A stretch of DNA of 42,943 bases from Rufibacter ruber (GTDB taxonomy: Bacteria > Bacteroidota > Bacteroidia > Cytophagales > Hymenobacteraceae). This document shows positions 2,434 through 32,213 of the stretch, piece after piece. The number at the start of each line of letters is the position of its first letter. Position 1 is the first letter of the stretch. Under the pieces are notes generated by a model. The model was not told the DNA's origin, did not search any database, and was given only the letters and a program-made list of their open reading frames with translations. Position numbers and translations under genes: made by a program. Where the stretch lies: contig NZ_LRMM01000040.1 in assembly GCF_001647275.1 (NCBI RefSeq), forward strand, positions 1 to 42,943, given 5' to 3'.

Positions 2434-2561
2434 CTTTCGGATTTCTCAATCCGAAAGCCCTCTGTCGGGGTTTGGAATCCCCATGCCTGCCAATTCTGCT
2501 CGTGGTTCACGGAGGATTGATAAATCCGCGACAGAGTGGTTCGGGATTGCAAATCCCGAAC
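2434..2561 (+). repeat. Composite four-hairpin element, copy 1 (GATT core)
   Basis: Four consecutive hairpins: H1 2434-2457 (arms CTTTCGGATT/AATCCGAAAG), H2 2467-2482 (GGGG..CCCC, one mismatch), H3 about 2511-2525 (GGATT/AATCC) and H4 2539-2561 (GTTCGGGATT/AATCCCGAAC). The linkers CTCTGTCG and CGACAGAG on either side of H2-H3 are also complementary, giving a branched fold. The central spacer TTCTGCTCGTGGTTC is shared with the inverted copy at 32096-32213. No reading frame crosses it sensibly. Confidence 0.75.
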
Positions 2562-2590
2562 AGCAATAGTAGAAGCGGCTAACAATTTTC

Positions 2591-2666
2591 CTGGCGCAAG
2601 CGTCCGCTTGTGTCCGCACGCATTTTGAATCTGCTATGCGTTGGCACAAGCGGACGCTTGCGCCAG
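2591..2666. repeat. 22-bp perfect inverted repeat with 32-bp loop
   Basis: The arm at 2591-2612 (CTGGCGCAAGCGTCCGCTTG plus TG) is the exact reverse complement of 2645-2666. It sits between two minus-strand glycosyltransferase genes, just downstream of the one at 2732-3856. No T-run follows on the minus strand, so termination is uncertain; it may be another REP-type element. Confidence 0.7.
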
Positions 2667-2687
2667 AAGTAGGTATATCTAGTTATT

Positions 2688-2721
2688 GTTTTGGGGCTGT
2701 TTTCTGAAAAACAGCCAAAAC
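2688..2721. repeat. Dispersed intergenic palindrome, copy 2
   Basis: Arms GTTTTGGGGCTGTTTT and AAAAACAGCCAAAAC. It lies 10 bp past the stop of the CgeB-like gene ending at 2732 (minus strand). Confidence 0.8.
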
Positions 2722-2731
2722 GGAAACTCAT

Positions 2732-3856
2732 TTAAGACACCAGCGCATCAGCGGCCGAAGATTTGGCAGTGGTGCGTGGGGTGGTCAAGAGCAGTTGCTC
2801 CAGTTCATCGGCACGGTGCCCGTAGGTGTGCTTAGCCAGTACTTTTTTGTAGGCGGCTTCCCCGATGGCTTTGGCGCGTTCCGGAGTTAAGCCTTGCAGC
2901 AACTTGGCTACTTCCTCGCCGTCTTTGGCTACCAGAATCTCTGTGTCTGGCTCGAAGAAGAAGTCAATGCCTTCCCAATAATCAGTGATGAGGCAGGCAC
3001 CGGCTCCGGCGGCCTCAAACACGCGGGTAGCGGGGGAGAAGCCGTAGCGGGCCATGCTCTCGCGGCTGATGTTCAGGACGGCTTTGGGGGTGCAGTTGAA
3101 GGCATTGTGCTCGTTGGTGTACACGTGCCCGATGTAGTTTACGTTGGCACTCAGAGGTTTATCACCCCAGCCGCTGCCGCCTATGATGAATTTCTGTTTT
3201 GGTAATTTGGCGGCTACGTCTAAGAAGAACTGCTCTACGCGGGCTTCGCGGTCGGGTAGGCGGTTGCCTAAAAACGCGAGGTCACATTCAAATTTCGCCT
3301 CTGGCGCAACGTGGTAATGGGTGGCGGTGTCCAGAGCGTTGTAGATGGGCACGCATTTCTTGGCGCCCAGTTTAGTGTAGGCATTTACCACGGGGTCGCC
3401 GCCGCCGTAGGTTAAGATTAAATCATACTGCGGAATGCAGGGGCGGAACGGATCGGCGGGGTCGCTTTCCACGCGGTCCAGGGTAGCGGGGGCATCCACG
3501 TCCCAGAAAATCACGAGGCGGTCTTTGCTTTGTAGTTTCAGCACCTCGGCCTCCAGCAGTTCGTCAAACACGCCTACGCCGCTGGCTTTCACTACCACAT
3601 CGGCGGTAGCCGCGTCTTCCAAGGCATTATAAACTGCTTCCTCGGTGGCTTGGTACACCACTACTTTGGCGTACTCGGGGTCTGGGATGTCGCGGTTTTC
3701 CTGGCGCTGGTAGGCATCTGGCTCATAGAAAGTAACCTGGTGGCCGCGGGCATGCAGGGCCCGCACGATACCACGGTAATAGGTGGCGGCCCCGTTCCAG
3801 TACGCTGAAACCAGACTTGATCCGAAAAAGGCGATGTTGAGCTTTTTATTCTGCAT
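2732..3856 (-). CDS. CgeB-like glycosyltransferase (paralogue 2 of 3)
   Basis: 374-residue paralogue of the 1248-2378 gene. It opens with the same layout (LNIAFFGSS then AYWNGAATYYRGIVRAL) and has the same C-terminal donor block, GFSPATRVFEAAGAGACLIT followed by DYWEGIDFFFEP. No signal peptide or membrane segment, so it is expected to act at the cytoplasmic face. Its start codon lies inside the end of the upstream gene (11-bp overlap, 3846-3856), implying translational coupling. Tandem duplication followed by divergence is the simplest origin, and the three copies may add successive or different sugars. Substrates are unknown. Confidence 0.82.
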   Translation of the reverse strand: MQNKKLNIAFFGSSLVSAYWNGAATYYRGIVRALHARGHQVTFYEPDAYQRQENRDIPDPEYAKVVVYQATEEAVYNALEDAATADVVVKASGVGVFDELLEAEVLKLQSKDRLVIFWDVDAPATLDRVESDPADPFRPCIPQYDLILTYGGGDPVVNAYTKLGAKKCVPIYNALDTATHYHVAPEAKFECDLAFLGNRLPDREARVEQFFLDVAAKLPKQKFIIGGSGWGDKPLSANVNYIGHVYTNEHNAFNCTPKAVLNISRESMARYGFSPATRVFEAAGAGACLITDYWEGIDFFFEPDTEILVAKDGEEVAKLLQGLTPERAKAIGEAAYKKVLAKHTYGHRADELEQLLLTTPRTTAKSSAADALVS

Positions 3857-5003
3857 ATGCTACGGGGGAGTTAGACGTGGAGGAAATTTTAGAGGGGGCA
3901 ATGCCCAGTTCTGCGCAGATGGCTTCCAGTTCATTGACGCGGTGGGCGCAGGAATGGCGGCGGTTGATGACGCGCAGGCCGTTGCACATTAAGTCCATGG
4001 CGCGGCGCTGGTCGGTGAGCACGGTTTGCAGGTGCTGTTTCATTTCTTCGCCGTTGCGGGCTACCAGGAAATCTTTGCCCGGGGCGAACAGGTTCTCAGC
4101 GTCTTCCCACGGCGCCGAAATAAGCGGAATCCCGCAGGCCATGGCCTCAAACGGACGGATGGTAGGAATGCCGGGCAGCGCCTCTACGTACGGTCTGCGC
4201 GGCACGTGCACCGTTACTTTGTACCTGGCAAATACCTCGGGCGCTTTATAATTGGGCAGCCACTCACCGTACTCAATGCCGGCTTCGGCTAAGGATTTAA
4301 TGGCGTGGTCTGGATAACGTACGCCATACACTTTGGCCTTCAGGCCGAGTTCTTTCACTGGATTTAAAAGGAATTCGTGCAATTCAGCGGTGCGCTCTTC
4401 GTCGCCCCAGTTGCCAATCCAGACCAAGTCGCCGTCAAAGGAATCTTTGGTGTGGGGGTAAAAAACGCGGGTATCGGCGGCCTCGTGCCAAGTCCAGGCT
4501 TTTTGGGTCCAGCCTTCTTTGAGGTATAACTCTTTGATAACTTGGCCGAAGGCCAGCACTCCGTCATAATGAGTCAAATCATAGGCGGCCATGCTTTCGC
4601 GTTCGGTCACGGCGCGGTGGTGGGTGTCATGGAATAGCAGGCGGTAATTGTTCTGCGTTCTGTGCTCACCCACGCGGCGTACTAGTTCATGGTCGTTCCA
4701 CTCGTGCATGAGCACCAAATCGGCGCCCGCCAGAACTTCGTCTAAATTAAGCGAATCCAGCTCATAAAAATTTGTTTCCAGACCCGGATAATACTGTTGT
4801 AGTTCCTCCAGTTTTTGCTCGCCGTATTGGCCAATTAAGTTGCTCAGGCTCCAGCCGCTTTTGGGTTCATAGACCTGCACGACATGGCCTCTGGATTTCA
4901 GTTCCGTCACCACGCCGCGCAGGAAGTGGGCGTTGCCATGGTTCCAGTCAGAGAGGAGGGAGTGGTAGAATAAGACAAGTTTCATAGGCATTTTTTGGGA
5001 CAT
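3846..5003 (-). CDS. CgeB-like glycosyltransferase (paralogue 3 of 3)
   Basis: Third and most divergent member of the tandem trio. The frame can be extended to a TTG at 5012, but the ATG at 5003 (MSQKMPMKLVLFYHS) gives an N-terminus matching paralogue 1 and is preferred (385 residues). The N-terminal strand is followed by SDWNHGNAHFLRGVVTEL, and the C-terminal block reads IRPFEAMACGIPLIS then APWEDAENLF. The sequence HVPRRPYVEALPGIPT before that block is not seen in the other two, so its acceptor pocket may differ. It ends with an 11-bp overlap into the next gene. A 450-bp gap full of hairpins separates it from the upstream GT4 gene. Confidence 0.82.
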   Translation of the reverse strand: MSQKMPMKLVLFYHSLLSDWNHGNAHFLRGVVTELKSRGHVVQVYEPKSGWSLSNLIGQYGEQKLEELQQYYPGLETNFYELDSLNLDEVLAGADLVLMHEWNDHELVRRVGEHRTQNNYRLLFHDTHHRAVTERESMAAYDLTHYDGVLAFGQVIKELYLKEGWTQKAWTWHEAADTRVFYPHTKDSFDGDLVWIGNWGDEERTAELHEFLLNPVKELGLKAKVYGVRYPDHAIKSLAEAGIEYGEWLPNYKAPEVFARYKVTVHVPRRPYVEALPGIPTIRPFEAMACGIPLISAPWEDAENLFAPGKDFLVARNGEEMKQHLQTVLTDQRRAMDLMCNGLRVINRRHSCAHRVNELEAICAELGIAPSKISSTSNSPVAYAE

Positions 5004-5053
5004 AAGACTCAAGATGTAAGACTTAAGACTTTTTGTTTTATTAATTTTTTATT

Positions 5054-5120
5054 CAGGTTCAAGTCTGGGACTTGGACCTGAAATGGCGGGAAGTTCTCAA
5101 CTGCCATGAGGCGGAGCCTC
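5054..5120. repeat. Three tandem hairpins
   Basis: 5054-5080 has arms CAGGTTCAAGTC and GACTTGGACCTG (one mismatch, loop TGG). 5084-5106 pairs TGGC/GCCA and AGTT/AACT around CTC. 5108-5120 is GAGGC-GGA-GCCTC. They resemble the hairpins of the composite elements but lack the shared spacer. Confidence 0.6.
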
Positions 5121-5137
5121 AAATTTCTTTTGCTGGT

Positions 5138-5170
5138 CGTCCCCCTTTGGAGGGGGTAGGGGGAGGATTA
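5138..5170 (+). repeat. CCCCCTTTGGAGGGGG element
   Basis: Palindromic core 5141-5156 followed by TAGGGGGAGGATTA. It is the same family as 5303-5331 and 7706-7740 and, inverted, 7823-7850. A shorter relative, CTCCCCTCAAGGGGAG, lies at 5226-5241. Confidence 0.65.
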
Positions 5171-5302
5171 CACAGGAGAGCCAGACATTGCTGATTCTTT
5201 TTCAATTGTAAACACCCCTCTTTATCTCCCCTCAAGGGGAGAATCTGCTTCTTCAAACGTTCACTTACTAAGACGCGGATTTACTTCCGTGCCTTTCTGA
5301 TA

Positions 5303-5331
5303 CTCCCCCTTTGAAGGGGGCGAAGGGGGAT
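5303..5331 (+). repeat. CCCCCTTTGAAGGGGG element
   Basis: Palindromic core plus a CGAAGGGGGATGT tail. A degenerate relative (CCCCTCCGAAGGGGG) lies at 5426-5440. Confidence 0.65.
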
Positions 5332-5459
5332 GTTTACACCTGCAGGTTCACGCATTGCAGATGTTCACTGTTTTGTTCTTAGCATGAGCTACTCCTATCA
5401 GCAACCGTCCTTGTCCTCACCCTATCCCCTCCGAAGGGGGACCACCAGGAATGCTTTAA

Positions 5460-6584
5460 TTACAGTGTCTCCACCTGATTCGCTGCTTCTGTTTTCACGC
5501 GCGCTTGCAGACTGGCATAAGCTTGCAGGTATTCCTGCGCCATGAGGGCGGCGGTGTAATCCTGGGCTTTCTTCACGGCACGGCAGGCCATGATGTTGCG
5601 GAGGAATTCATCATCAATCAGTTTCTGCAAAATGGCGGTGAGGCCTTCTACATCGTTTGTTTCCACGAACTCTGCGGAACGGTCCCAGACTTCCTTGAGG
5701 CTGTTAATCTTGCCCAGCACTAAGGCGCAACCCGAAAACGCAGCCTCCAGAATGGATAACCCGAAAGGCTCATATTTGGCAGGCAGCACGTACAAAGAGG
5801 CGCGGGAAAGCCAATCAGAAATTTCCCTTTGGGACAGCTTGCCCAGGAAGTGCACGTTCTTGAAGAGCTTGTTTTCGCCTGTGGCGGGGTGGGTGGCATC
5901 ACCGGCTATATAAATAGGCCAGTCCACGGCATCGGCTACCTGGGTGAGGAGGGCGATGTTCTTGGCCTCGTCCCAGACCCGGCCCATGCTGAAGATGAAC
6001 GGTTCCTTTCGCCCGAAGCGGAAGGCGTGTGGGTCGCGGCCGTTGTTTATGACCTGTTTTTGCGAAAATGTGCCATAAACGGCTTCGGCCTCGGTGAGCA
6101 TGGCTTGGGTAGGGGCTACTACCACATCGGCGGCATGCAGGCCATCGCGCACGCGCTCAAAGTAATAGTCTCGGCCGGCGGGGGCTTTCTCGTTTTTCAC
6201 GGCGCGCCACCAGGTCTGCACGCACGAATGGATGACCATGAGCACGGGTTTGTTCCAGGGCAGTTGGCCGTGGCAGAAGTTGTTGAGGTGAATGAGGTCT
6301 GGATTGAGTTCGCGGCTGAGTTCCAGGAGCCACTCACCGGCCGCGTCCACATCGGCCCAGGGGTAATCCATCCACTCCAGCTGATATTCACTTTCGTACA
6401 CCGTCACGTTAGAAAGGACGGTCAGTTCCTGCCGTTGCTGCAGGGTAATGGCGGCACCCATGGTGGCCAGGTAAAAGTGCACGTGGTGCGGCGCCATGGC
6501 CCGGATGAGCTCCAGGCTGTACGTCCAGACGCCGCCTACGGTGTCGGTGGTCATGAGAACGGTTCTGTGCTGCTTATCTACCAT
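5460..6584 (-). CDS. GT4-family glycosyltransferase
   Basis: 374-residue retaining GT-B enzyme (Glyco_transf_4 / Glycos_transf_1 layout). Seen in the sequence: the N-terminal acceptor domain begins TTDTVGGVWTYSLELIRAM (13-31) with the glycine loop of this fold; the nucleotide-sugar domain has FSMGRVWDEAKNI (198-210; Arg202, Lys208), and the EX7E motif EPFGLSILE gives Glu272 and Glu280. No membrane segment. Its start overlaps the end of the upstream oxidoreductase by 11 bp, so the two are almost certainly co-translated. It likely adds a sugar supplied by the upstream dehydrogenases and epimerases; which sugar is unknown. Confidence 0.88.
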   Translation of the reverse strand: MVDKQHRTVLMTTDTVGGVWTYSLELIRAMAPHHVHFYLATMGAAITLQQRQELTVLSNVTVYESEYQLEWMDYPWADVDAAGEWLLELSRELNPDLIHLNNFCHGQLPWNKPVLMVIHSCVQTWWRAVKNEKAPAGRDYYFERVRDGLHAADVVVAPTQAMLTEAEAVYGTFSQKQVINNGRDPHAFRFGRKEPFIFSMGRVWDEAKNIALLTQVADAVDWPIYIAGDATHPATGENKLFKNVHFLGKLSQREISDWLSRASLYVLPAKYEPFGLSILEAAFSGCALVLGKINSLKEVWDRSAEFVETNDVEGLTAILQKLIDDEFLRNIMACRAVKKAQDYTAALMAQEYLQAYASLQARVKTEAANQVETL

Positions 6585-7620
6585 AGATGCGGTCTAAAAC
6601 GGTGGCTACTTTTACAAACTGCTCTGCCTCTTCATTGAATTTCTCGCCGTTGGCTACCCGTTGGGCCCATTCTACGGCGGCACGTCCGCCCCAGGTATCT
6701 GGCGGAGAGACCAGCGTTTCGGTCTTGGTGCCCCAGAACCGATCGGCCACGAAGTCATAGAAGGAACCGTTCACGTTCTTGAACGAGGCGCCGCCGTTGG
6801 TGCCGTAGAACGTGGCGCTGATGATGGCTTCCTGCCCCGCGGGTAGGTTCCAGGAACAGCTCAACTGCACGTGCGGACCCGTAGCCAGGTGAATGCTGGC
6901 GGTGGCGTAGTCTTCTACCTTGCCATCGGCGGGGGTAACACGTTTGCCTTTGGAGAAGAGGCTGCTGGTCACGTTCTCCACTTCAGGGAAACCTAGTGTC
7001 CAGAGGGCTAAATCAACCAAGTGCACACCCAGGTCAATCACGCAGCCGCCGCCCGACAGTTTGGGGTCATAGAACCAGGCCTTATCGGGGCCATAGGCGT
7101 TGTGGAAGACCAGCTCCACGCCGTAGATGTCGCCTAGCTCACCTGATTTCACCAGTTCATAGACTTTGCACATGGCCACGGTGCTGCGGTAAGAAAGGTC
7201 TACGCCCAGTAAGGTATTGGCCTGGCGGGCGGCCTCTACCACGCGCTTGGTTTCCTCGGCGTAGCGGCCCAGCGGCTTCTGGCAGAAAACGGCTTTGCCG
7301 CTCTCTAACGCAATGATGGATTGCTCGGCGTGAAAGGCGCTGGGAGTGGCGATGACCACGCCCTCAATGTCTTCCTCTAACAATTCATTGATGGTTTGGC
7401 AGACTTTGGTGTTAGGCGCGGTTTTCTGGGCCTCCTCCACGTTTTGCGGTACAGGGTCGGCCACGGCGGTTACTTCGCCCACGCCCGAATTGGCAATGGC
7501 TTCCATGCGGTTACGGCCAATCCAGCCAATGCCCAGAAAGCCGAGTTTTAAAGTATCAGTAGGAGCAACGGTAGGGGCCGCTGCGGCTTGAGTAGGTTCT
7601 AGTACAGTCTCTTCCGCCAT
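6574..7620 (-). CDS. Gfo/Idh/MocA-family sugar oxidoreductase
   Basis: 348-residue NAD(P)-dependent oxidoreductase acting on a sugar or sugar nucleotide. Rossmann motif GIGWIG (30-35); the usual EKP reads QKP (114-116), keeping catalytic Lys115; the second-domain signature DLGVHLVD supplies Asp196, His200 and Asp203. The frame is open back to 7680, but those 20 codons lie within the dispersed palindrome at 7648-7685, so the ATG at 7620 (MAEETVLEP) is chosen. Residues 5-25 are a low-complexity Ala/Pro/Thr tail, unusual for the family. It overlaps the GT4 gene by 11 bp. The reaction (for example oxidation at C3) cannot be fixed from sequence. Confidence 0.88.
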   Translation of the reverse strand: MAEETVLEPTQAAAAPTVAPTDTLKLGFLGIGWIGRNRMEAIANSGVGEVTAVADPVPQNVEEAQKTAPNTKVCQTINELLEEDIEGVVIATPSAFHAEQSIIALESGKAVFCQKPLGRYAEETKRVVEAARQANTLLGVDLSYRSTVAMCKVYELVKSGELGDIYGVELVFHNAYGPDKAWFYDPKLSGGGCVIDLGVHLVDLALWTLGFPEVENVTSSLFSKGKRVTPADGKVEDYATASIHLATGPHVQLSCSWNLPAGQEAIISATFYGTNGGASFKNVNGSFYDFVADRFWGTKTETLVSPPDTWGGRAAVEWAQRVANGEKFNEEAEQFVKVATVLDRIYGR

Positions 7621-7647
7621 AGTGTAAAGGGTTATGGTTGTGTTTTG

Positions 7648-7685
7648 CGTTTTTGGCCTGTTTTCAGAAAAGTAGGCCAAAAACG
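7648..7685. repeat. Dispersed intergenic palindrome, copy 3
   Basis: Arms CGTTTTTGGCCTGTTTT and AAAAGTAGGCCAAAAACG. It lies 28 bp upstream of the oxidoreductase start and creates a spurious in-frame extension of that gene. Confidence 0.8.
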
Positions 7686-7705
7686 GGTTTGTGTTTGTTG
7701 TTGGT

Positions 7706-7850
7706 CGTCCCCCTTTGAAGGGGGTAGGGGGGTGATTACTCCTGTAGAATTTGGCTTTCTCGCTTTCAATTTTTCAAACCATTGCTTATAGCCGGAGCTA
7801 ATTAAGCTTTAAGCGGCCATGTCATCCCCCTACCCCCTTCAAAGGGGGAC
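7706..7850. repeat. Inverted pair of CCCCCTTTGAAGGGGG elements
   Basis: 7706-7740 (CGTCCCCCTTTGAAGGGGG then TAGGGGGGTGAT) and 7823-7850 (its near-exact reverse complement) flank about 80 bp of AT-rich sequence. The pair could form a cruciform and fills the gap between the MDR dehydrogenase and oxidoreductase genes. Confidence 0.65.
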
Positions 7851-7865
7851 GGAATAAGTGAGAGT

Positions 7866-8870
7866 CTACATCGTCACCAACGCCTTCATGAATCCGTCTG
7901 GGCGGTTGGTCAGGGCTTGAAACGCCTCTTCCATGTTTTCCAGCGGGAAGGTGTGGGTGTAGAGCATGTCTGGTTTCAGGCGGCCGCTTTCTACGGCGTC
8001 TACGGCTTCTTTCATGCCGTCAAGGTACATCTGCGGGTCGCGCTCGTGGGCGTTGATGACGTCCAGACCGCGCCAATTCCAGAGTTGGATGTTTACCTGG
8101 CGCATGCCGTCCTGGTGGAAACCGGCAATGATTAATCTGCCGCGTTCCTTGCATAACTCGCCGGCAAGGTTCAGGGGCCACTCCTTGCCAGTGCACTCAA
8201 TCACGCGGTCGCAGAAAACGCCGCCGGTGAGGTCTTTCACCTGCTCAATGATTTTGTAGTGATCATTCATGGGAATGAGTTCATCGGCACCGCATTGTTG
8301 GGCGATGTCCAGAGAGAACGGACGCTGGGAAATGGCAATAACCCTGGCGCCCGCCTCTTTGGCCAATTGAACCAGTAAAGCGCCTAAAAACCCGATGCCC
8401 AAAATGGCCACCGTCTGGCCCGCCTTGATGTCGGAGCGTTTGAAGATGTTCATCGCGCAGCCTAGCGGTTCACCTGGGAACGGTTTACCTGCCAAGGAGG
8501 CTGGCAATTTTACCACAGAAGTAGCCTCAGCCACGTCATAGGCGGCGTAGGAATTGTAAGAAAGAGCCGCCACGCGGTCGCCCACCTGCAGGTCTTTCAC
8601 TTCGGCACCCACGGCGTCAATGATTCCCCAGCCTTCGTGGCCAGGATTTCCTGCGCTGATGGGGTAAGTGAACCAGTCACGGCCTTCCCACACGGGAATG
8701 TTGGAGGCGCAGAGGCCACAGCCTTCCAGCTTAATGCGCACTTGCGTGGCGGTAGGCTCGGGCAGGGCTACTTCTTTGATTTCAACCTGCTGGGGCGCAG
8801 TAAGCACCGCCGCAGCCATGGAGGTGGCGACGGCGGTGTCTGGAGTGTCTTGGAAAAGATCAGTCTGCAT
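7866..8870 (-). CDS. Zinc-type MDR alcohol/sugar dehydrogenase
   Basis: 334-residue medium-chain dehydrogenase. GroES-like half: GCGLC (Cys54 as catalytic zinc ligand candidate), GHE (His78, Glu79), and Cys138 in PLGCAM as a third ligand. Rossmann half: LGIGFLG (157-163). The four-cysteine structural-zinc loop typical of classical members is absent. The N-terminus (MQTDLFQDTPDTAVATS) is an unusual acidic extension before the first strand. The stop lies in the repeat-rich gap; the start is 4 bp after the stop of the GH-epimerase fusion, so they are in one transcript. Probably oxidises or reduces a sugar or polyol intermediate of the cluster; substrate unknown. Confidence 0.85.
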   Translation of the reverse strand: MQTDLFQDTPDTAVATSMAAAVLTAPQQVEIKEVALPEPTATQVRIKLEGCGLCASNIPVWEGRDWFTYPISAGNPGHEGWGIIDAVGAEVKDLQVGDRVAALSYNSYAAYDVAEATSVVKLPASLAGKPFPGEPLGCAMNIFKRSDIKAGQTVAILGIGFLGALLVQLAKEAGARVIAISQRPFSLDIAQQCGADELIPMNDHYKIIEQVKDLTGGVFCDRVIECTGKEWPLNLAGELCKERGRLIIAGFHQDGMRQVNIQLWNWRGLDVINAHERDPQMYLDGMKEAVDAVESGRLKPDMLYTHTFPLENMEEAFQALTNRPDGFMKALVTM

Positions 8871-8874
8871 AAAA

Positions 8875-10944: not shown

Positions 10945-10945
10945 A

Positions 10946-10985
10946 GCGTTTTTAGCTTCTTTTGGGAAAAACAGGTCAGAAACGC
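10946..10985. repeat. Dispersed intergenic palindrome, copy 4 (degenerate)
   Basis: Outer arms GCGTTTTTA / AGAAACGC are kept while the centre (GCTTCTTTTGGGAAAAACAGG) pairs poorly. It fills the 45-bp gap between the epimerase stop and the fusion start. Confidence 0.55.
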
Positions 10986-10989
10986 AGCG

Positions 10990-12114: not shown

Positions 12115-12135
12115 TCGTGGGTGTTTTTTAGGGGG

Positions 12136-12849: not shown

Positions 12850-12859
12850 AGAAGAAGAT

Positions 12860-13245: not shown

Positions 13246-13295
13246 GTTTTCTGTTTTCGGCCTGTTTTCTGAAAAACAGCGCCAAAACAGAAAAC
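13246..13295. repeat. Dispersed intergenic palindrome, copy 5 (long arms)
   Basis: Arms extend to about 22 bp: GTTTTCTGTTTTCGGCCTG and its near complement ending CAGAAAAC, with one extra base (CAGCGCC) in the right arm. Confidence 0.8.
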
Positions 13296-21500: not shown

Positions 21501-21510
21501 AGCGGTAGTA

Positions 21511-23446: not shown

Positions 23447-23453
23447 GGGTTGC

Positions 23454-23489
23454 GTTTTGAGCCTGTTTTCTGAAAAACAGGTCAAAAAT
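23454..23489. repeat. Dispersed intergenic palindrome, copy 9
   Basis: GTTTTGAGCCTGTTTT and AAAAACAGGTCAAAAAT, 8 bp after the composite element. Confidence 0.75.
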
Positions 23490-23626
23490 AGAAATGCTCT
23501 CAATCCTGGGCTCCGCTTCATTAATCCCCAATACCCTTTATCTTCAAATTCTCACATCTCCAGATTTCTCAATTACATTCTGTAAATTAGCACATCAGCC
23601 CATTCTCACCTTAGCACCTTAATCCC

Positions 23627-24670: not shown

Positions 24671-24715
24671 GGCAGCTGGAGAACAGCTGAAAGCCTGTGC
24701 CTCAAGCGGTTTTCT

Positions 24716-24751
24716 GTTTTAGCGCTGTTTTCAGAAAAAGAGGCCGGAAAC
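24716..24751. repeat. Dispersed intergenic palindrome, copy 10
   Basis: GTTTTAGCGCTGTTTTCAG and AAAAAGAGGCCGGAAAC. The right arm merges with the stem of the terminator at 24740. Confidence 0.7.
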
Positions 24752-24769
24752 GCTCCGGCCTCTTTTTTT
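24740..24769 (+). terminator. Intrinsic terminator of the asparaginase gene
   Basis: GAGGCCGGA (24740-24748) pairs with TCCGGCCTC (24754-24762), followed by seven T. Confidence 0.85.
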
Positions 24770-24868
24770 GCCTACACTGGAATTGCCCGCCTCTCTGGGG
24801 GTAGGAGCAGCCTGAGCTGGGGCCGTTCATGAGGATTTTAAATTTCTCTGTCCTCCCCAGTAGAAGCA

Positions 24869-24901
24869 TTTGGAAACATGCAGGGCTGCTGCCTATATTT
24901 A
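24869..24901 (+). promoter_or_regulatory. Probable promoter of the lipoprotein/M4 protease pair
   Basis: -33 TTTG (24869-24872), 21-bp spacer, -7 TATATTTA (24894-24901), one mismatch to TAnnTTTG. The ATG is 70 bp downstream. Confidence 0.45.
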
Positions 24902-24970
24902 CTTGAAAATCATTTACCTACCTCTGCCTTCCGCCGTTCCCACTGAACAGGATGCTGTTATTCTTTTTAC

Positions 24971-25405
24971 ATGAAGCCAAGTTGCTTTTTTCACCTTTCC
25001 GGCTGGTGGGTGTTTCTTCTGGTCTGCAGCCTCTCAGCGTGTGTAACACAGGCCCCCACTGCCAGTGAGTATACAAGTATGGCCCTGGTATGGGGCAAAG
25101 GCGGCGGTGTGACGGGTAAAGTGACTGAATACGTGCTTATGCCCAACGGGCAGCTCTCAGAAAGGGATGCTTTTACCAGGGAGCTGAAAGACGTGAAAAC
25201 GGTAGGCCAGGCAGAGACTCTCCAATTCTTCAGGCAGATGACCTCCCTGCCGGCTTCCTTTCACCGGCCTGGAAACATGTACCAATACCTTAAATTAGAA
25301 AAAGAAGGCACGGTGCAGAAAGAAGCCGTGTGGGGAGAACACAGGTTTACCCCGCCCGCAGAGATAGAGGCTCTTCACCGTCAGTTACAATCCTTGGTTT
25401 TATAA
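24971..25405 (+). CDS. Small lipoprotein, function unknown
   Basis: 144 residues: signal with lipobox (FLLVCSLSAC, Cys24). The mature part has a central beta-like stretch (SMALVWGKGGGVTGKVTEYVLMPNGQL) and no recognised family. It stops 31 bp before the M4 protease, with the same probable promoter, so the two may be cotranscribed; a role as an inhibitor, chaperone or anchor of the protease would be a guess. Length and start are supported by the clean lipoprotein signal. Confidence 0.6.
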   Translation: MKPSCFFHLSGWWVFLLVCSLSACVTQAPTASEYTSMALVWGKGGGVTGKVTEYVLMPNGQLSERDAFTRELKDVKTVGQAETLQFFRQMTSLPASFHRPGNMYQYLKLEKEGTVQKEAVWGEHRFTPPAEIEALHRQLQSLVL

Positions 25406-25436
25406 ACGAATCGGCTATTCTTATATCCAGAATTTT

Positions 25437-28427
25437 ATGCAGTCAATTTTTACACGGGCCACCTCTGTTGCCGCTCTTTTTTGTTTACTACAGCTCCCAA
25501 TGGCCCACGGGCAGCAGAAGCCGGTGCGTTTGCCGGCTGCAGATGTTTCTGTGGTAGAGGCAGAAATTCCCCATTTTCCCGCGTTGCCAGAAGGCCTTGA
25601 GGTCAAGCGTGCGCAGCAATCGCACCTGCCTGTTTTCATTACAGGCAAGTTGCCGGCCAAGGGCCAACCAAATGCCCGCAAAAGCAGCTCTCCGCAGGAA
25701 GCAGGTTATAGCTATTTAAGGGAGCTCAAGGCTACCCTGCAGATTATTGAACCAGACCAGGAGTTTGTGGTGGCCAACGTGCAGACAGATGAGCTGCAGC
25801 AAACCCACCTTCGCATGCGCCAGCAGTACCGCGGGGTGCCGGTGTACGGCGGCGAGGTGATGCTGCATACCCAGAATAACCAGGTTTCTGTGTTGAACGG
25901 GCAGTATTTTCCCACCCCTTCGCTGGTAAGCGTGTTGCCAACCGTGTCTGGGGAGGCGGCCATTAAAACAGCCCTGGCTTCTCTGGGTACTACGGGCACT
26001 GCTGCGCATTTGCAAAGCCATTCTATGCTGGGCAAGGGGGAAAACAAGGCCCGGCTGGTGATTTACCACCCCAAGAGAAACCATTTGGCAGAACGGCTTA
26101 CGTGGCATGTAACGGTCTATCCTGATCTGGTGCACCGGTGGGAATACTTTATTGATGCCCTGAATGGGGAAGTGCTCCACAGGTACAACCACCTCTGTTC
26201 GGCAGACGGCCCCAGAACAGCCACCGGCAAAGACCTCAACAACGTCAACCAGTCTTTGAACACCTACCAGCTGGGCGCTTCTTACTACCTGATAGACGCC
26301 TCCCGGGCCATGTATAACCCAAGTTCTGTTCTGCCAGAGAAAGGAACGGGCGTGATCTATACCTTAGATCTGAAAGACGCCGCCTACACGTTCAATGGCG
26401 CTTTTCAGCAGGTAACCTCTACTGATAACCTCTGGGCTAGCTCTGCCTCCGTTTCGGCGCATTACAATGCCGGGGTGGTGTATGAGTATTTTAAAACCAA
26501 GCATGGGCGTAACTCCATTGATAATGAGGGAAGTTCCATTGTCTCCGTCATCAATGTGAAAAGTGATAAAGGGGAAATATTGGATAACGCCTTCTGGAAT
26601 GGAGAGGCAATTTTCTACGGGAATGGAGACAAGGCATTCAAACCTCTGGCGGGCGCCTTAGATGTGGCAGGCCATGAGATGTCACATGGCGTAGTGCAAT
26701 ACACCGCAGGGTTAGAGTACCAGGATGAGCCTGGTGCTATCAATGAGTCAATGGCAGATGTGTTTGGGGTGTTGGTAGAAGGCCGCAACTGGTTGATTGG
26801 CGAAGACATTGTCAAGGCTACCGCTTACCCGTCTGGGGCTCTAAGGAGCATGCAAGACCCGCATAACGGCGGCACCGGGTTGCAAGATGTCAACAAAGGC
26901 TGGCAGCCGGCGCATTACAGTGAGCGCTACACCGGCACGCAAGACAATGGTGGCGTACACGTAAACAGCGGGGTTCCCAATAAAGCTTTCTATCAGTTTG
27001 CCACCGCTACAGGCATGAGTAAAGACAAAGCCGGGCGGGTGTACTACCGGGCGCTGAGTGTCTACCTGACCAGCCTGTCTCAGTTTACTGACCTCAGGTA
27101 TGCGGTGATTCAGGCGGCCACAGATTTATATGGGGCTAACTCAGCAGAGGTGGCGGCCGCCCGCACTGCCTTTACCACCGTGGGGATTGTGGACCCGGGC
27201 ACCGGGCCTACCCAGGAGGGGTACCAATTTACCATGGCTCCCAACCCGGGCGCTGACTTCCTGTTGTATCAGTATGCCCCAGATAAGTCATTGCGGAACG
27301 TAAATATCGCTAGCATGACGTACACCACCGTCACCACTACCCTGATGAAAGGCAAACCCAGTGTGACAGATAACGGAACGGTCGCCTACTTTGTAGCCCA
27401 GAACGGTATGATCAAGGCTGTAAACCTCACCGGGGCGGTAAACGAGCGGGTAATAGACAGCCAGCCGGTTTGGGACTATGTGGCAGTATCTAAAGACGGC
27501 TCTAAACTGGCGGCAGTAAAGTCTGTCCTGGAACCGGTTGTCCATATTTATGACTTAGCCCGGAGCCAGTGGTCTGCCGTGACTGCCGTTAATCCTGACC
27601 CGTTTCTGCAAGATGAGAAGCTACTTGATATCAAAAGCCTGGAGTGGGACTACACCGGTGAAAAGCTCCTTTTTGATGCCCTGTATTCTTACACAAGTGG
27701 CGCTGCCAAAAAAGAGATCAGAAACATTGGGCTTCTGAGTGCCTGGAGCAACACCAGTGCAAGCGTGGGAGATGGGGCTACTAAGAACTTTATTCTGCTG
27801 AACTCAGATATCATCAACCCCACGTTTTCCAAAAACTCTCCCCATATTGTAGCTTTTGACTATGTGGGAAAGGACCCTGCCAACCCCACCTCTGTCTCTT
27901 ATACATTGGTTACCTTAAACTTGAAAACGTCAGTGTTCAGAGGGGTTTTTGGCGGACAGGTCATGCACTACCCGTCATTCTCCAGAACAGATGACAGACT
28001 TATTTTTGGCGGCCGCAGCACCACCGGCTCTGAGTTGATAGGTTACCTGCCAATGGCCGAAGATAAATTACTTGCCTCTGCAGGGCCGGTGGGCTTTATT
28101 GGGCAAGGCAACTGGGCCGTCTGGTATGCCCAGGGCACCCGCATTCTGGGGTCTGAAGAAGATGTGGCCACCCAGGTGAATGCGCAGGTGTATCCCAACC
28201 CTTTCCTCTCAGAGTTGACCGTGCGGTATGACTACAAGGGCAAAGGGGCCGTCTCTATGACACTTATCAACCTGCTGGGGCAGGAATGCAAAACCGTGAC
28301 TGTTCCCCGGGCGGCTGTAGGGCAGAACCTGGAGACGCTTTCTCTGCAGGGGCTCCCCGCGGGACCCTACATTCTGCGTCTCACCAACGGGGAGGTAACC
28401 AGTAGTTACCGCCTGCTTAAACAGTAA
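25437..28427 (+). CDS. Secreted M4 metalloprotease (thermolysin family) with T9SS tail
   Basis: 996 residues. Signal peptide 1-25 (to AHGQ). FTP/PepSY-type propeptide about 40-250 (YRGVPVYGGEVMLHT; WHVTVYPD). Catalytic domain about 262-585: HEMSH (413-417) binds zinc with Glu414 as catalytic base, Glu437 in NESMADVFG as third ligand, His508 in GGVHVNSG as the transition-state His. A long extra domain (about 595-900) has beta-rich, WD40/TolB-like segments. The last 80 residues (from VYPNPFLSELTV) are a Por-type T9SS C-terminal sorting domain ending in YRLLKQ. Probably exported and anchored at the surface. Terminator at 28452. Confidence 0.93.
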   Translation: MQSIFTRATSVAALFCLLQLPMAHGQQKPVRLPAADVSVVEAEIPHFPALPEGLEVKRAQQSHLPVFITGKLPAKGQPNARKSSSPQEAGYSYLRELKATLQIIEPDQEFVVANVQTDELQQTHLRMRQQYRGVPVYGGEVMLHTQNNQVSVLNGQYFPTPSLVSVLPTVSGEAAIKTALASLGTTGTAAHLQSHSMLGKGENKARLVIYHPKRNHLAERLTWHVTVYPDLVHRWEYFIDALNGEVLHRYNHLCSADGPRTATGKDLNNVNQSLNTYQLGASYYLIDASRAMYNPSSVLPEKGTGVIYTLDLKDAAYTFNGAFQQVTSTDNLWASSASVSAHYNAGVVYEYFKTKHGRNSIDNEGSSIVSVINVKSDKGEILDNAFWNGEAIFYGNGDKAFKPLAGALDVAGHEMSHGVVQYTAGLEYQDEPGAINESMADVFGVLVEGRNWLIGEDIVKATAYPSGALRSMQDPHNGGTGLQDVNKGWQPAHYSERYTGTQDNGGVHVNSGVPNKAFYQFATATGMSKDKAGRVYYRALSVYLTSLSQFTDLRYAVIQAATDLYGANSAEVAAARTAFTTVGIVDPGTGPTQEGYQFTMAPNPGADFLLYQYAPDKSLRNVNIASMTYTTVTTTLMKGKPSVTDNGTVAYFVAQNGMIKAVNLTGAVNERVIDSQPVWDYVAVSKDGSKLAAVKSVLEPVVHIYDLARSQWSAVTAVNPDPFLQDEKLLDIKSLEWDYTGEKLLFDALYSYTSGAAKKEIRNIGLLSAWSNTSASVGDGATKNFILLNSDIINPTFSKNSPHIVAFDYVGKDPANPTSVSYTLVTLNLKTSVFRGVFGGQVMHYPSFSRTDDRLIFGGRSTTGSELIGYLPMAEDKLLASAGPVGFIGQGNWAVWYAQGTRILGSEEDVATQVNAQVYPNPFLSELTVRYDYKGKGAVSMTLINLLGQECKTVTVPRAAVGQNLETLSLQGLPAGPYILRLTNGEVTSSYRLLKQ

Positions 28428-28451
28428 AGAAAAGGGGACAAAGCCCCCTTT

Positions 28452-28487
28452 CCCCAGAGGAACCAAAAACCTCTGGGGATTTTTTTT
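28452..28487 (+). terminator. Intrinsic terminator of the M4 protease gene
   Basis: CCCCAGAGG (28452-28460) and CCTCTGGGG (28470-28478), then A and eight T. Confidence 0.88.
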
Positions 28488-28521
28488 GCCTTAGACCCAG
28501 GGAGCCATGGCGGGTAGAAAT

Positions 28522-28563
28522 CCTGTTTTAAGCCTGTTTTTCAGAAAACAGACCGAAAACAGG
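28522..28563. repeat. Dispersed intergenic palindrome, copy 11
   Basis: CCTGTTTTAAGCCTGTTTTT and its partner ending CGAAAACAGG, 34 bp after a terminator. Confidence 0.78.
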
Positions 28564-28689
28564 AGAGGGGTACGCTGAGAAACCTGCCCTGCCGGCTTGG
28601 CAAAAGCCTCAGATTCACCGAACTTTACGCAGGCACACACGCGTTGGGGCAATTAAATCGTTAGGGATACAGAATTAATCACTGAGTAC

Positions 28690-30618
28690 ATGAGGTCAAG
28701 TAGCTTACGCCACTTCTTTTTGCTTTTTCTACTACTAGGCGCTTTCTCTGCAAAAGCGCAGGACATGCAGATTGACACCCGCCTGGGCTATAATTACCTG
28801 GACAAGTTTGAGTTTACAGATGAGTGGCAGTACCTCTCAACAGACATGTACCTCTTTAATCCCAGCAAATTTTCCAGGGTGATCAATGAGCTGGAGCAGG
28901 GCACTACCAAAGCCAGGAGGCGGGACTACATCAACCTGGAGTCGTTGTTTATTTCGGCGCAGCTCAAGAACGCCAAGCTGTTTGGGCAGGAACCGGTGGT
29001 GTACCCGTTGTACAACTTCTCTATTGACAACTCCAAGCAGGGCTATACCACCACCACCTCAGACAACATTGACGCCATCCGTATCATAGACAAACTGCCG
29101 CTGGCCGCAGATGAGCGCAACATTGACGCCCTGGTAGAGGCCAAGCTGTTCACCTCAGACAGCCGCGAGCTGTTCTTCCACCTCATAGCCAACCAGCTCA
29201 CCAATATCTCCAAGCAGGTGTCTCTGCAGGCGGCCATGCTCTCCCTGGTGGGGGAGTTTGGGAATTTGATCCGGAACTCCGCGCAGCGGAAGGAGTACAA
29301 GTTCAGCTCTACCATCAGGCTGTATGAGGGGCAGAACTTTGATACCCGGTTGCACTCTGTGCGCGTGTATGTTTTCGTGCCCAGCTTTGCCAAGATTCCG
29401 GCGCTGCGCACAGCCCGGTTGACAGAGCTGCTGAGCAGCAGCCCGCAGGGCTTTGAGCGCGCCAAACTGGAGGCGGCGCTGGCGTATAAAGATTATCCGG
29501 TGCTGGTGGTGGCCAACTACAAGTCACTGTACCGCATGGATGCCCTCACCGGCTCTGAGATTACCTCTGAGACCATTGAGCGCCGCCGCGTGCGCATTGA
29601 GAACGCCTACGGCGCCGGTCTGGTGAATGATGACGCCTATAAGCAGGAAAAGTTCTTTATTGAGTTCCTGCGCAGCTTCGCAGATCTTAAACAGAAGCTG
29701 AACAGCTACCAGCTCAACTACAAGAACAACAGCCCAGAGGCCAACGCCAAAACCCTCTTTGCGGTAATTCAGGAGTACAAGCGCCTGAAAACCATGGCCA
29801 GCCTGCGCGACCAGGAGTTTTCACGCAACAGCACCTACCAGCGCATCTTCAAAAACGAGTATGAGTCTATTCTGGCAAACGCTGATGGCTACATGGAGTC
29901 TGACCACAACCTTAAAAACGGAAAGGAACTGGTGAACACCCTGCTGGTGCTGGACCGTGAGCAAACCAAACCCTACACCCAGCCCCAGCGCGAGTTTTAC
30001 CTGAGCCGGCTGTATTCAGTGGAGCTGCCCAGCAAAGACTACCTGACCAGCACCCTGGAGGGCGAAGGCATTTCCCGCCACCTCAACCGCCTGGAAACTG
30101 CCCAGTACACAGACCTCTTCGCCAGAGACGTGGTGCGCCTGCGCGATGCCCCGCCCACTGAGGAGAATGTCTCTTTCAGGAACTCAGTGCTGGAGAAAGC
30201 CAGCACCACCAAGTGCCGAAGCTGCCGTGACGAGGTGCAGCAGGCGGCCCGGCAGTTTAACCAGCGGCTGGAAGAGCAGCAGCTGCAGCAGGAACGCATT
30301 AAGCTGCAAGAGCTCAACCAGCAGGTGGAGCAAAAGATCTTCGCCTACCTCAAGCGTGACGACTGCCTGGATACTATTTTCAAGACCCAATATCCGGCAG
30401 ACGCCCTGCCTGACTTCATTCAGCGGTTGTATGAAAAGAAGGTTGAGCTAAGGAAGCAGGTGACAGAGCTGGATAACCTGTACAAGGCCCCTCCCAAGGA
30501 GCTGAAGTTATCTTTGCTCAAAGAGCATAACCAGCGTCTGGCCGTTCGTTTAAAGCTCCTGGACCAAGGCTACGCCGATATCTGTACCGCTGAGAAAACC
30601 CTCTGTGGCTGTGACTAG
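28690..30618 (+). CDS. Secreted 642-residue protein, function unknown
   Basis: Signal peptide MRSSSLRHFFLLFLLLGAFSAKA (cut near residue 23). Residues about 24-330 look mixed alpha/beta with DTRLGYNYLDKFEFTDEWQYL and a motif-like run VRVYVFVPSFAKIP; residues about 330-640 are mostly long helices with coiled-coil character (QQLQQERIKLQELNQQVEQ). Cysteines CRSC (about 508-511) and CTAEKTLCGC near the end could form disulfides or bind metal. No family recognised. No membrane anchor or T9SS tail seen, so periplasmic location is the best guess. Its 3' end meets the thioredoxin gene head-on with a shared terminator. Confidence 0.7.
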   Translation: MRSSSLRHFFLLFLLLGAFSAKAQDMQIDTRLGYNYLDKFEFTDEWQYLSTDMYLFNPSKFSRVINELEQGTTKARRRDYINLESLFISAQLKNAKLFGQEPVVYPLYNFSIDNSKQGYTTTTSDNIDAIRIIDKLPLAADERNIDALVEAKLFTSDSRELFFHLIANQLTNISKQVSLQAAMLSLVGEFGNLIRNSAQRKEYKFSSTIRLYEGQNFDTRLHSVRVYVFVPSFAKIPALRTARLTELLSSSPQGFERAKLEAALAYKDYPVLVVANYKSLYRMDALTGSEITSETIERRRVRIENAYGAGLVNDDAYKQEKFFIEFLRSFADLKQKLNSYQLNYKNNSPEANAKTLFAVIQEYKRLKTMASLRDQEFSRNSTYQRIFKNEYESILANADGYMESDHNLKNGKELVNTLLVLDREQTKPYTQPQREFYLSRLYSVELPSKDYLTSTLEGEGISRHLNRLETAQYTDLFARDVVRLRDAPPTEENVSFRNSVLEKASTTKCRSCRDEVQQAARQFNQRLEEQQLQQERIKLQELNQQVEQKIFAYLKRDDCLDTIFKTQYPADALPDFIQRLYEKKVELRKQVTELDNLYKAPPKELKLSLLKEHNQRLAVRLKLLDQGYADICTAEKTLCGCD

Positions 30619-30624
30619 CGTGTC

Positions 30625-30667
30625 TTCTGTTTTCGCCTGTTTTCTGAAAAACAGGCCGAAAACAGAA
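30625..30667. repeat. Dispersed intergenic palindrome, copy 12
   Basis: TTCTGTTTTCGCCTG and CAGGCCGAAAACAGAA, directly abutting the terminator at 30666. Confidence 0.82.
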
Positions 30668-30695
30668 AAGCCGCTCCTGCAAAGGAGCGGCTTTT
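30666..30695. terminator. Bidirectional terminator
   Basis: AAAAGCCGCTCCT and AGGAGCGGCTTTT (13-bp arms, loop GCAA) between convergent genes; U-tracts exist in both directions. Confidence 0.88.
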
Positions 30696-30719
30696 CTGTT
30701 TGATGAGGGCAGAATCAGC

Positions 30720-31046
30720 TTACGCCAGCTGGCCGTCTAATTTCTGGGCCAGCACGTTCTTAGGAACGGCGCCCACTTGTTTGTCTACCACTTGGCCGTT
30801 TTTGAAAACCAGCAGGGTAGGAATGCTTCTGATACCAAACTTGGCAGACGTCTGCGGGTTGGCGTCTACGTCTACTTTTCCTACTACCACGCGGCCTTCA
30901 TAGTCGCCGGCCAGTTCTTCCACCACGGGGCCAACCATGCGGCAAGGTCCGCACCACTCGGCCCAGAAGTCTACTAAAACGGGTTTATCAGAATTGATGA
31001 TCTCCTCAAAGTTAGCATCGGTGATCTCTATTGCTTTATGTGCCAT
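30720..31046 (-). CDS. trxA: Thioredoxin
   Basis: 108 residues from ATG 31046 (frame is open to 31106, but upstream codons cross the promoter). WCGPC (Cys32, Cys35) is the active site, followed by the thioredoxin cis-Pro in [10 protein letters not shown]; full length for the family. It reduces cytosolic disulfides and would also feed electrons to the DsbD-type protein encoded at 16249. A clear -7 box lies 46 bp upstream at 31092-31099. Shares a bidirectional terminator with the preceding convergent gene. Confidence 0.95.
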
Positions 31047-31091
31047 AATTGTCAGTTTATGATTGCTTAGTCTAACGTAATGATCTCTGTT

Positions 31092-31099
31092 CAAAGATA
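31092..31099 (-). promoter_or_regulatory. -7 box of the thioredoxin gene
   Basis: On the minus strand TATCTTTG matches TAnnTTTG; a weak -33 (GTTTTA) lies about 21 bp further up, at 31121-31126. Confidence 0.55.
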
Positions 31100-31645
31100 G
31101 AACCAAATTTGGTCTTCAGGTAAAACTACCACTTTTCTAGCAGGAAATCTAGTTTCCCCCAGGATACCGTTTTTGGCCTGTTTTCTGGAAAACAGCCCGA
31201 AAACAGTCAGTATATCTACTGATTACTATGTGAAAAGGTTAGGTTGGCCCGGAAGTTTGTACCTGACAGAATGTCAACGTCTGTGCCTTGCCTGAGCAGC
31301 TGCCGTTTCTGCCCGGCAGCGGGAGGTCCCTGAAAAAAACAAGGCTTTCCCAGAGAAAAGAGGTGGAAGCCAACTTAACCCGGAAAAGCCCAGAACCCGA
31401 AGGTTGGGACAAAGATAGGCAAAGTTGTGATGGCGGGCAAGCCGAAAGGAGATGGTTTTGCAAAGGCCGGCTATAAAGCCAGCTCCAGCACCCCTTTGCA
31501 GCTTTACGGTGGCCTGTCTCCTTACAGGCCGTCATCTGCCCTACCGGAGTTCTGCTTCGTATGCTAACTGCTAGGGCGTTTCTACTTTCCGGTATCCTTT
31601 TCAGATTCGCCTGAACGGGCTCAAACTGTTGCCGGTAAGGCTTCT
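31100..31645. other. Gene-free region upstream of the decayed transposase
   Basis: No convincing gene. It contains a dispersed palindrome (31169-31204), small GC hairpins (for example GGCCTGT/ACAGGCC at 31511-31530) and, about 31578-31620, a stretch (TATCCTTTTCAGATTCGCCT) similar to the end of the long repeat at 41290. Frames at 31239-31535 (-) and 31288-31476 (+) show no family features. Confidence 0.45.
31169..31204. repeat. Dispersed intergenic palindrome, copy 13
   Basis: GTTTTTGGCCTGTTTTC and GAAAACAGCCCGAAAAC, with two mismatches in the arms. Confidence 0.78.
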
Positions 31646-32034
31646 ATGGGGGTGAAGGGTAAAATACATGAAGACACCTTTCCTTTTTAACCATAGCAGT
31701 AGTAGGTTGGGTAGACGTTTTCACACGTTCAGTATAGCGGAGCAGACTTATAGACTCTCTTAAATTCTGCCAAGAAAAGAAAGACCTGGAAATTTAGGCG
31801 TGGTGGTGGTGAGCAACCACCTTCCTTTGATTGCCGCCGCCAAAGATGGGTATCCTCTGTTTAACATTCTTCGGGATTTTAAACAATTCACCAGCCGCAA
31901 CATCACAGAGACTGGATTACATTCACAAATGCCCGGTACGCACGGAGATTGTGCAGAAACCAGGGCAATAATACAGCTCTGCCATTGATTATGCAGGCGG
32001 GAAAGGTCTGCTGGAGATGATTCTGGTGGAGTAG
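31646..32034 (+). pseudogene. Decayed REP-associated (Y1/HUH, IS200-like) transposase
   Basis: Translating across frames recovers pieces of one protein in order: MGVKGKIHEDTFPF, then LTIAVVGWVDVFTRSV, LIDSLKFCQEKKDLEI, VVVSNHLPLIAAAKDGYPLF, NILRDFKQFTSRNIT, then LDYIHKCPVRTEIVQKP and YSSAIDYAGGKGLLEMILVE, with a stop at 32032-32034. These match the layout of REP-associated tyrosine transposases. It is dead: internal TAG codons near 31742 and 31792, at least three frameshifts, the HUH motif changed to HLP, and about 80 codons lost between FTSRNIT and LDYIH, likely with the catalytic Tyr. Downstream, from 32096, lies a REP-like hairpin cluster, as is usual for such genes. Confidence 0.8.
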
Positions 32035-32095
32035 TTGTATTTGTTCGGTACTTTTAGATTCCTGTAGTTGCTGTTTGGGAGATCTACGGTGTGCT

Positions 32096-32213
32096 GTTCG
32101 GGAGTTCCACTCCCGAACGTATCTGCTACGGAGTTCCACTCCGCGGGAACCACGGGCAGAAGAAGGGGAGTGGAACTCCCCGGCAGATGGCTTTAGGAGT
32201 AGGACTCCGAAAG
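32096..32213 (-). repeat. Composite four-hairpin element, copy 2 (GAGT core), inverted
   Basis: On the plus strand: 32096-32118 (GTTCGGGAGT/ACTCCCGAAC), 32129-32143 (CGGAGT/ACTCCG), spacer GGGAACCACGGGCAGAAGAA, 32165-32181 (GGGGAGT/ACTCCCC) and 32191-32213 (CTTTAGGAGT/ACTCCGAAAG). Linkers ATCTGC and GCAGAT pair as in copy 1. The whole aligns in reverse orientation with 2434-2561. Confidence 0.78.

Follow-up and report, generated by a model that had tools for sequence, protein, structure and literature searches.

Two inverted copies of a composite element, each built of four hairpins, lie in a 42,943-nucleotide stretch of the Rufibacter ruber genome (assembly GCF_001647275.1, contig NZ_LRMM01000040.1, forward strand; hereafter the window). 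The hairpins of copy 1 have GATT/AATC cores next to the loop, and those of copy 2 have GAGT/ACTC cores. Why would a whole element switch its core together? An earlier note, made from the window sequence, had proposed either that the core is recognized or that the hairpins are homogenized by a process resembling gene conversion. Our preferred answer, to which we assign a probability of about 70%, is that a REP-associated tyrosine transposase (RAYT; REP, repetitive extragenic palindrome) reads the hairpin apex, and that all hairpins of an element must keep that address.

Copy 1 on the plus strand and copy 2 on the minus strand were alignable over their full length, as the earlier note had described, and are members of one element family (Table 1). 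Both follow the order long H1, short H2, spacer, short H3 and long H4, with the halves H1-H2 and H3-H4 mutually inverted, as in REPINs (REP doublets forming hairpins). They have the spacer TTCTGCYCGTGGTTC in common, and the linker between H1 and H2 is complementary to that between H3 and H4 (CTCTGTCG/CGACAGAG in copy 1, where the final base of CTCTGTCG overlaps the first base of H2, and ATCTGC/GCAGAT in copy 2). The cores of copy 1 are all GATT/AATC except for H2, which is GTTT/AATC, and those of copy 2 are GAGT/ACTC in all four hairpins; outer-stem mismatches are present in H1 of copy 2. The matched element is slightly longer than the hairpins, extending to GAACAGC on one side and to CTCTTT on the opposite side, and at the hairpin foot H1 is preceded by GCTC or ACTC and H4, in reverse, by GCTG. 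Copy 1 lies between the minus-strand open reading frames (ORFs) 1248-2378 and 2732-3856, and copy 2 lies before ORF 32335-33417.

When the two strands of each copy were folded as single-stranded DNA and compared with shuffled sequences, the z scores were -5.9 and -5.7 for copy 1 and -6.9 and -7.3 for copy 2. None of the 200 shuffles in any of the four runs folded as well as the real copy. H1, H4 and the linker stem were present in all four predicted folds; H2 and H3 mostly paired with each other or with nearby bases, not as separate hairpins.

We then asked how many copies the host genome carries, using a covariance model built from 16 elements and run on both strands. Only 150 of 1356 candidate matches were scored, so the counts are lower bounds; all sites were fetched apart from four weak ones, and strand duplicates were removed. 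The earlier note had suggested such a search and had said that absence of the element outside the two window sites would speak against its idea; we found at least 83 distinct sites. Four cores were readable at 47 of these 83 (the other 36 lacked four readable cores), and all 47 elements were uniform, 38 with GATT and nine with GAGT. Shuffling the cores among elements at each hairpin position left on average 20.1 uniform elements and at most 29 in 10,000 trials. One site called '-GTG' (L039:1345-1461; L and G numbers are our labels for loci and genomes) proved on inspection to be a decayed GAGT element, and two loci (L075 and L094) contain pairs with one arm from each core type. A second set consisted of 42 loci of relatives, picked because they matched the GAGT H4 pattern, resembled copy 1 or lay beside RAYTs. 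It yielded 46 distinct matches, 12 of them without four readable cores, and all 34 full elements (18 GAGT, 16 GATT) were uniform (shuffles: mean 4.3, maximum 12). No full element mixing GATT and GAGT was found among the 47 host-genome and 34 relatives' elements. The core shuffles in both sets, together with the folding shuffles, rule out chance as the cause of the pattern. A different explanation would be descent from a master copy whose core had changed for reasons unrelated to any enzyme and was simply inherited. Copying one master is expected to give uniform families, the copies within one genome share descent and are non-independent observations, and the GAGT copies are alike outside the core also.

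Two traits shared by copies 1 and 2 appear less general. The linker stem is clear in both, and its occurrence across elements is a small effect only: in the 28 of the 47 full elements that could be parsed, linkers had a mean of 3.86 paired bases versus 3.23 after shuffling, and the highest mean in 500 shuffles, 3.79, was just under the observed value. The shared spacer is untypical of the host-genome GATT copies, since copy 1 is its sole carrier among the 38 full GATT elements; it is found in four of the nine full GAGT elements (two mismatches allowed) and, in relatives, in four of the 16 full GATT copies examined (up to three mismatches).

To see what separates the core types, we aligned 21 GAGT elements with five GATT elements that have the common spacer (134 columns with under half gaps), requiring at least 80% agreement within each group. 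Ten columns showed near-fixed differences. Eight of them form the second stem pair from the loop in H1 to H4, T-A in GATT and G-C in GAGT, and the remaining two form one linker-stem pair, T-A versus C-G. The chance of eight of the ten columns falling on the eight core columns of 120 is about 5e-11, assuming independent columns. Thus, one base pair has been altered per hairpin, in four hairpins, with pairing kept. A master copy would have needed this same pair change in four different hairpins with almost nothing else fixed. In addition, other RAYT lineages have other shared apices (GACA at L198), and the apex class tracks a residue of the RAYT in two sets of loci, described below; we therefore consider descent without recognition unlikely. 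Recombination or gene conversion between the hairpins of one element would also make the cores agree within each full element, and a truncated hybrid, described below, shows that parts can recombine. However, the outer stems, loops and linkers still differ among the four hairpins while the apical pairs agree, whereas conversion would be expected to level whole hairpins. Likewise, of 512 pairs of hairpins from the same locus beside RAYTs, 53% had identical apical 3 bp, compared with 23% for the 3 bp that follow. Homogenization, the second proposal of the earlier note, is accordingly very improbable in our view, and its first proposal, recognition of the core, gains from both the uniformity and the near-fixed pairs.

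The core type also goes with the neighbouring RAYT. The host genome contains four Y1 transposase genes, of which the three scored against NCBIfam are RAYTs; one gene, on contig C112 (L032), is flanked on either side by four hairpins, most of which have AGTC apices. In relatives, RAYTs of another clade have GATT four-hairpin elements directly upstream at L174 (Rufibacter roseus), L181 (Rufibacter sediminis), L190 and L193, with the hairpins beginning 77 to 224 bases upstream of the gene; at L174 and L181, the elements share their linkers with copy 1. G012 has a second, convergent RAYT (RAYT2), 78% identical to that of L174, which adjoins GAGT hairpins, and in G009 two contig ends (L256 and L257) each carry a RAYT start with a GAGT element upstream; these starts look like a duplicated gene that broke the assembly. 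All-GACA hairpins flank the RAYT of L198 on both sides. In other genera, the RAYT lies between two hairpin pairs (L195, L198, L199, L200 and L201), and at L195 a RAYT-less four-hairpin copy comes after the RAYT-bearing unit and shares its unusual H4. We read the four-hairpin element as both ends of a RAYT-bearing unit minus the gene. When hairpins of different bases next to one RAYT were compared at 87 loci, 44% of pairs shared their exact apex (locus mean), compared with 3.6% after shuffling hairpins among loci (maximum 10.2% in 2000).

From these sequences, we infer that the element is probably a RAYT-less mobile unit like a miniature inverted-repeat transposable element, of the kind represented by REPINs and bacterial interspersed mosaic elements (BIMEs), with two inverted halves around a spacer. 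It would be transposed by copying in trans by a Bacteroidota-type RAYT, an HUH tyrosine transposase that would bind and cleave the folded single-stranded hairpins and read their apical base pairs. The key pair would be the second from the loop (T-A in GATT, G-C in GAGT, C-G in GACA), and the reading could be done partly by helix residue 81 of the enzyme, which aligns weakly with K82 of E. coli TnpA_REP. Since every hairpin of an element has to suit a single enzyme, a RAYT lineage with changed reading would select for an identical pair change in each of the four and would leave the outer stems and spacer unchanged.

Across the genus, the element's presence follows the RAYT clade. Exact GATT H4 hairpins were found in nine of 16 Rufibacter genomes (23, 19, 11, 10, 10, 8, 4, 4 and 3 sites) and at no site in the other seven. 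All nine carry this RAYT clade at 70% identity or more: the gene is open and near full length in seven, meets contig ends in G009 and is decayed in the host. The RAYT of G007 is identical to that of R. roseus. The best RAYT match in the seven hairpin-less genomes reached at most 53% identity (nine of nine with the clade versus none of seven without; Fisher p 8.7e-5, kinship ignored). Exact GAGT H4 hairpins occurred in four genomes, 59 in G009 and 5, 2 and 2 in the others; reversed-pattern controls gave zero in both the GATT and the GAGT searches. GACA elements are rare, the exact pattern occurring at one site each in five of 60 genomes. The assemblies are drafts in which RAYTs may be hidden, as in G009. 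If the hairpins were instead kept by the host as transcription or RNA-processing signals, the intergenic position and strong folding of both copies would be natural. But the window contains no Rfam match at gathering thresholds, which also argues against a known RNA family, and the presence of the element follows the RAYT clade. Among the 12 genomes in which the intergenic region of copy 1 is readable, the element is present in four and absent in eight. A host signal as the origin of the pattern is thus hardly credible, and some copies could still have a secondary host use.

We next compared core type with RAYT sequence. In a tree of 26 RAYTs, from which the RAYT pieces of the window were left out, GATT was widespread and the GAGT RAYT was sister to the L174 group (support 80/77); the GACA RAYTs lay on one branch with two mixed GATT+GACT loci, and several forks were moderately supported. 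In the L174 clade, the eight GATT RAYTs and that of L166 have K at residue 81, the GAGT RAYT and both mixed ones have Q, and the three GACA ones have G. Covariation was then scored more broadly. From 156 RAYT copies, 140 remained after deduplication, 86 had a two-hairpin apex, 67 were left after thinning, and 61 had a clear apex class, purine-C or purine-T. Residue 81 and apex class agreed at 60 of these 61 loci, with a small residue at 81 for 14 of 15 purine-C apices and for none of 46 purine-T apices; with the discovery clade excluded, the counts were 12 of 13 and none of 39. With the rule unchanged, a later set of 92 copies gave 39 loci (47 lacked two agreeing hairpins, five were ties and one was a duplicate), of which 33 could be classed. 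Agreement was found at 28 of the 33, with a small residue at 15 of 19 purine-C and one of 14 purine-T loci (Fisher p 5.9e-5, kinship ignored).

Residue 81 could tentatively be placed on a known structure. In a profile of 20 RAYTs, the best solved relative was E. coli TnpA_REP (4er8; E 2.1e-6), and the alignment put residue 81 on position 82 of the 4er8 chain. A predicted RAYT model (mean predicted local distance difference test score 85.3) also had 4er8 as its best structural match (Foldseek E 1.1e-7), with residue 81 within a helix spanning residues 72-93. Part of one published study reports that K82 of TnpA_REP, in helix alpha3, makes a specific contact with REP base C27, and that loop bases are essential in group 3, in contrast to E. 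coli REPs (PMC8266576). We tentatively propose, at rather less than even odds, an address code in which the K82-equivalent residue, helped by a segment at about 115-120, would set the accepted apical pair: K would go with T-A, a small residue (S, T, G or A) with C-G, and Q or R with others. If so, a new RAYT lineage would gain a separate element population through one residue and one pair in four hairpins.

The window itself holds the remains of a RAYT gene. A tblastn search with the L174 RAYT matched three pieces at 31672-32028, adjoining copy 2, and other RAYTs widened the match (Table 1). Its stops, frame breaks and absent middle mark it as a pseudogene. A neighbour sequence at 31327-31417, the pseudogene and the GAGT element have the order and single strand seen at RAYT2 of G012; in G004, G007, G010, G013 and G015, the GATT RAYT and the same neighbour matched on opposite strands. 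The order and strand shared with RAYT2 suggest that copy 2 most likely belongs to the dead GAGT RAYT. No intact RAYT of the GAGT clade was found in the host draft genome, and with the pseudogene beside copy 2, the GAGT system in the window looks dead.

Table 1 Features of the four-hairpin elements and the decayed RAYT in the window.
Feature	Position	Strand	Remarks
Copy 1, four-hairpin element, GATT cores	2432-2564 (hairpins 2434-2561)	+	ends GAACAGC
Copy 1 parts	H1 2434-2457; H2 2467-2482; spacer 2494-2508; H3 about 2514-2527; H4 2539-2561	+	
Copy 1 linker stem	2460-2536	+	CTCTGTCG 2460-2467 pairs with CGACAGAG 2529-2536
Copy 2, four-hairpin element, GAGT cores	32093-32215 (hairpins 32213-32096)	-	
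Copy 2 parts	H1 32213-32191; H2 32181-32165; spacer 32161-32147; H3 about 32143-32129; H4 32118-32096	-	
Copy 2 linker stem	32121-32188	-	ATCTGC 32188-32183 pairs with GCAGAT 32126-32121
Decayed RAYT gene	31646-32031	+	pieces correspond to residues 1-9, 11-53, 54-87 and 139-181 of Rufibacter RAYTs

Several observations weigh against recognition by a RAYT or against the part given to residue 81. Only one full-length GAGT RAYT was available, the protein identity of the RAYT pieces in the window does not separate the GATT from the GAGT type, and G005 has two GAGT hairpins with no GAGT RAYT seen. The earlier note had held that more copies with mixed cores within an element would count against its idea. 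Full elements bore out its expectation, but one truncated hybrid (L294:276-411) joins a GAGT left part to a GATT right part, the outer hairpins of L032 in the host genome have mixed cores, and so do hairpins beside RAYTs at L166, L197, L202 and L195 in other genera and at L192 in Rufibacter. The comparison of insertion sites that the note had also suggested was only partly informative: the copy 1 element is variably present, as given above, but no clean insertion junction or empty site was found in the 12 genomes, because other repeats occupy the region. No target-site duplication was seen at 21 GAGT hairpin-end boundaries of G009, where ends are shared. As for residue 81, the apex classes were defined after the data table had been seen, and the later set was chosen for its similarity to P0002, a protein with S at that residue. 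That set contained five misses in 33; of the four purine-C ones, three carry R at 81, and in two of these three the apex is CGA. In a ranking of 151 columns by association with the apex, residue 81 came fourth, after 116, 115 and 120. A tree-corrected test had only two supported pairs (p 0.5), with significance out of reach, and the alignment stretch around residue 81 is weak alone (12.2 bits, i-Evalue 1.2).

Other repeats accompany the elements and the host RAYTs. A two-hairpin repeat, GGCGCAAGCGTCCGCTTGTG ... CACAAGCGGACGCTTGCGCC, adjoins copy 1 at 2595-2670; its hairpin also flanks another host RAYT (L030), and other members of the genus have similar two-hairpin repeats in this intergenic region. 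The third host RAYT (L031, G000:C97) has hairpins GGCGCGGAAGTTACTTCCGTGCC on both sides, and similar hairpins recur near several GATT elements (L023-L027). At L032, the spacer motif reads CGTGGTTCCCG on one side and CATGGTTCCCG on the other. The motif CGTGGTTC is also present in the AGTC-apex elements of L032, L103 and L104. The RAYTs there share only some 52% identity with the L174 type, a hint that the families have exchanged sequence or that the spacer has a role. In G009, a similar stretch, about TTTTTCCCTACAAGATTAGCC, comes after five GAGT elements (L291, L297, L300, L301 and L307), hinting at a preferred target inside another repeat. The window also contains a palindromic repeat family, D1, about GTTTTNGGCCTGTTTTCNGAAAACAGGCCNAAAAC, at 19 places (for example 1182-1222, 2683-2723, 13248-13288 and 33854-33894). 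Its core CTGTTTT-N(2-5)-AAAACAG has 1105 exact sites in the host genome versus 3 to 321 in 15 other genus genomes, and no transposase was linked to it. A short repeat family, D4, around CCCCCTTTGAAGGGGG, lies at 5130-5171, 5294-5335 and 7698-7739.

Our searches of an open-access library gave no description of the four-hairpin build, of forms with and without a RAYT, of the concerted switch or of the residue link. How RAYTs of the Bacteroidetes group discriminate their own repeats is of interest; the relevant group, group 5, is not treated in the accessible part of the study of RAYT specificity (PMC8266576). The elements offer a natural mutation series, in which one pair changes in four hairpins and tracks a residue aligned to a reported DNA contact. 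They allow direct tests, with short oligonucleotides, of how transposases and repeats coevolve and of how one repeat family arises from another, and they identify an abundant class of genomic hairpins, hitherto only loosely described.

Finally, we compared the system with known ones. IS200/IS605 elements have transposases of the HUH Y1 fold, hairpin ends read as single strands and gene-less derivatives, all of which resemble what we describe. In contrast, each end here consists of two hairpins, and the four RAYTs scored (P0001, P0002, P0003 and L174) gave 23-29 bits against the IS200/IS605 transposase equivalog NF033573 (cut-off 55) and 90-107 bits against NF047646, REP_Tyr_transpos (cut-off 80). 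The L174 RAYT has the motifs NHLH, WQ and YIHMNP, with H61 and Y143; P0001 has NHLH, WQ and YLHQNP, and P0002 deviates with SSHVH and YVHTNP. By the published motif definition, and P0002 aside, these agree with TnpA_REP subclass 2.6, or RAYT group 5, in NHLH, WQ and a spacing of about 82 residues from HUH to Y, and come close to, without exactly matching, its Y motif YIH[QN]NP (PMC6006769). According to the part of that source available, the subclass comprises mostly Bacteroidetes proteins whose genes are flanked by hairpins without GTAG, with copies elsewhere in the genome, as here, and a 21-residue insert between alphaC and beta4 was suggested to help recognize the flanking structures. The same text calls these only 'atypical secondary structures' and does not mention the four-hairpin build, the existence of forms with and without the RAYT, or the shared apex and its concerted switch (PMC6006769). 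TIRtrons likewise carry RAYT-like genes enclosed by inverted repeats, and some of these repeats make up families; in the part of the report available, their terminal inverted repeats are mostly unrelated to REPs, whereas here the ends are hairpin pairs with a common apex (PMC3733652). Proteobacterial REPINs and BIMEs share with our elements the multicopy inverted palindromes (at least 83 sites in the host), the presence of a cognate RAYT in the same genome or in related ones, and RAYT-REP coevolution, which is known in general (PMC2817692, PMC8266576). As far as the available parts of these sources describe them, REPINs consist of two hairpins whose foot is GTAG or GTGG, whereas the window elements have four hairpins of two classes and lack that foot (PMC2817692, PMC8266576).

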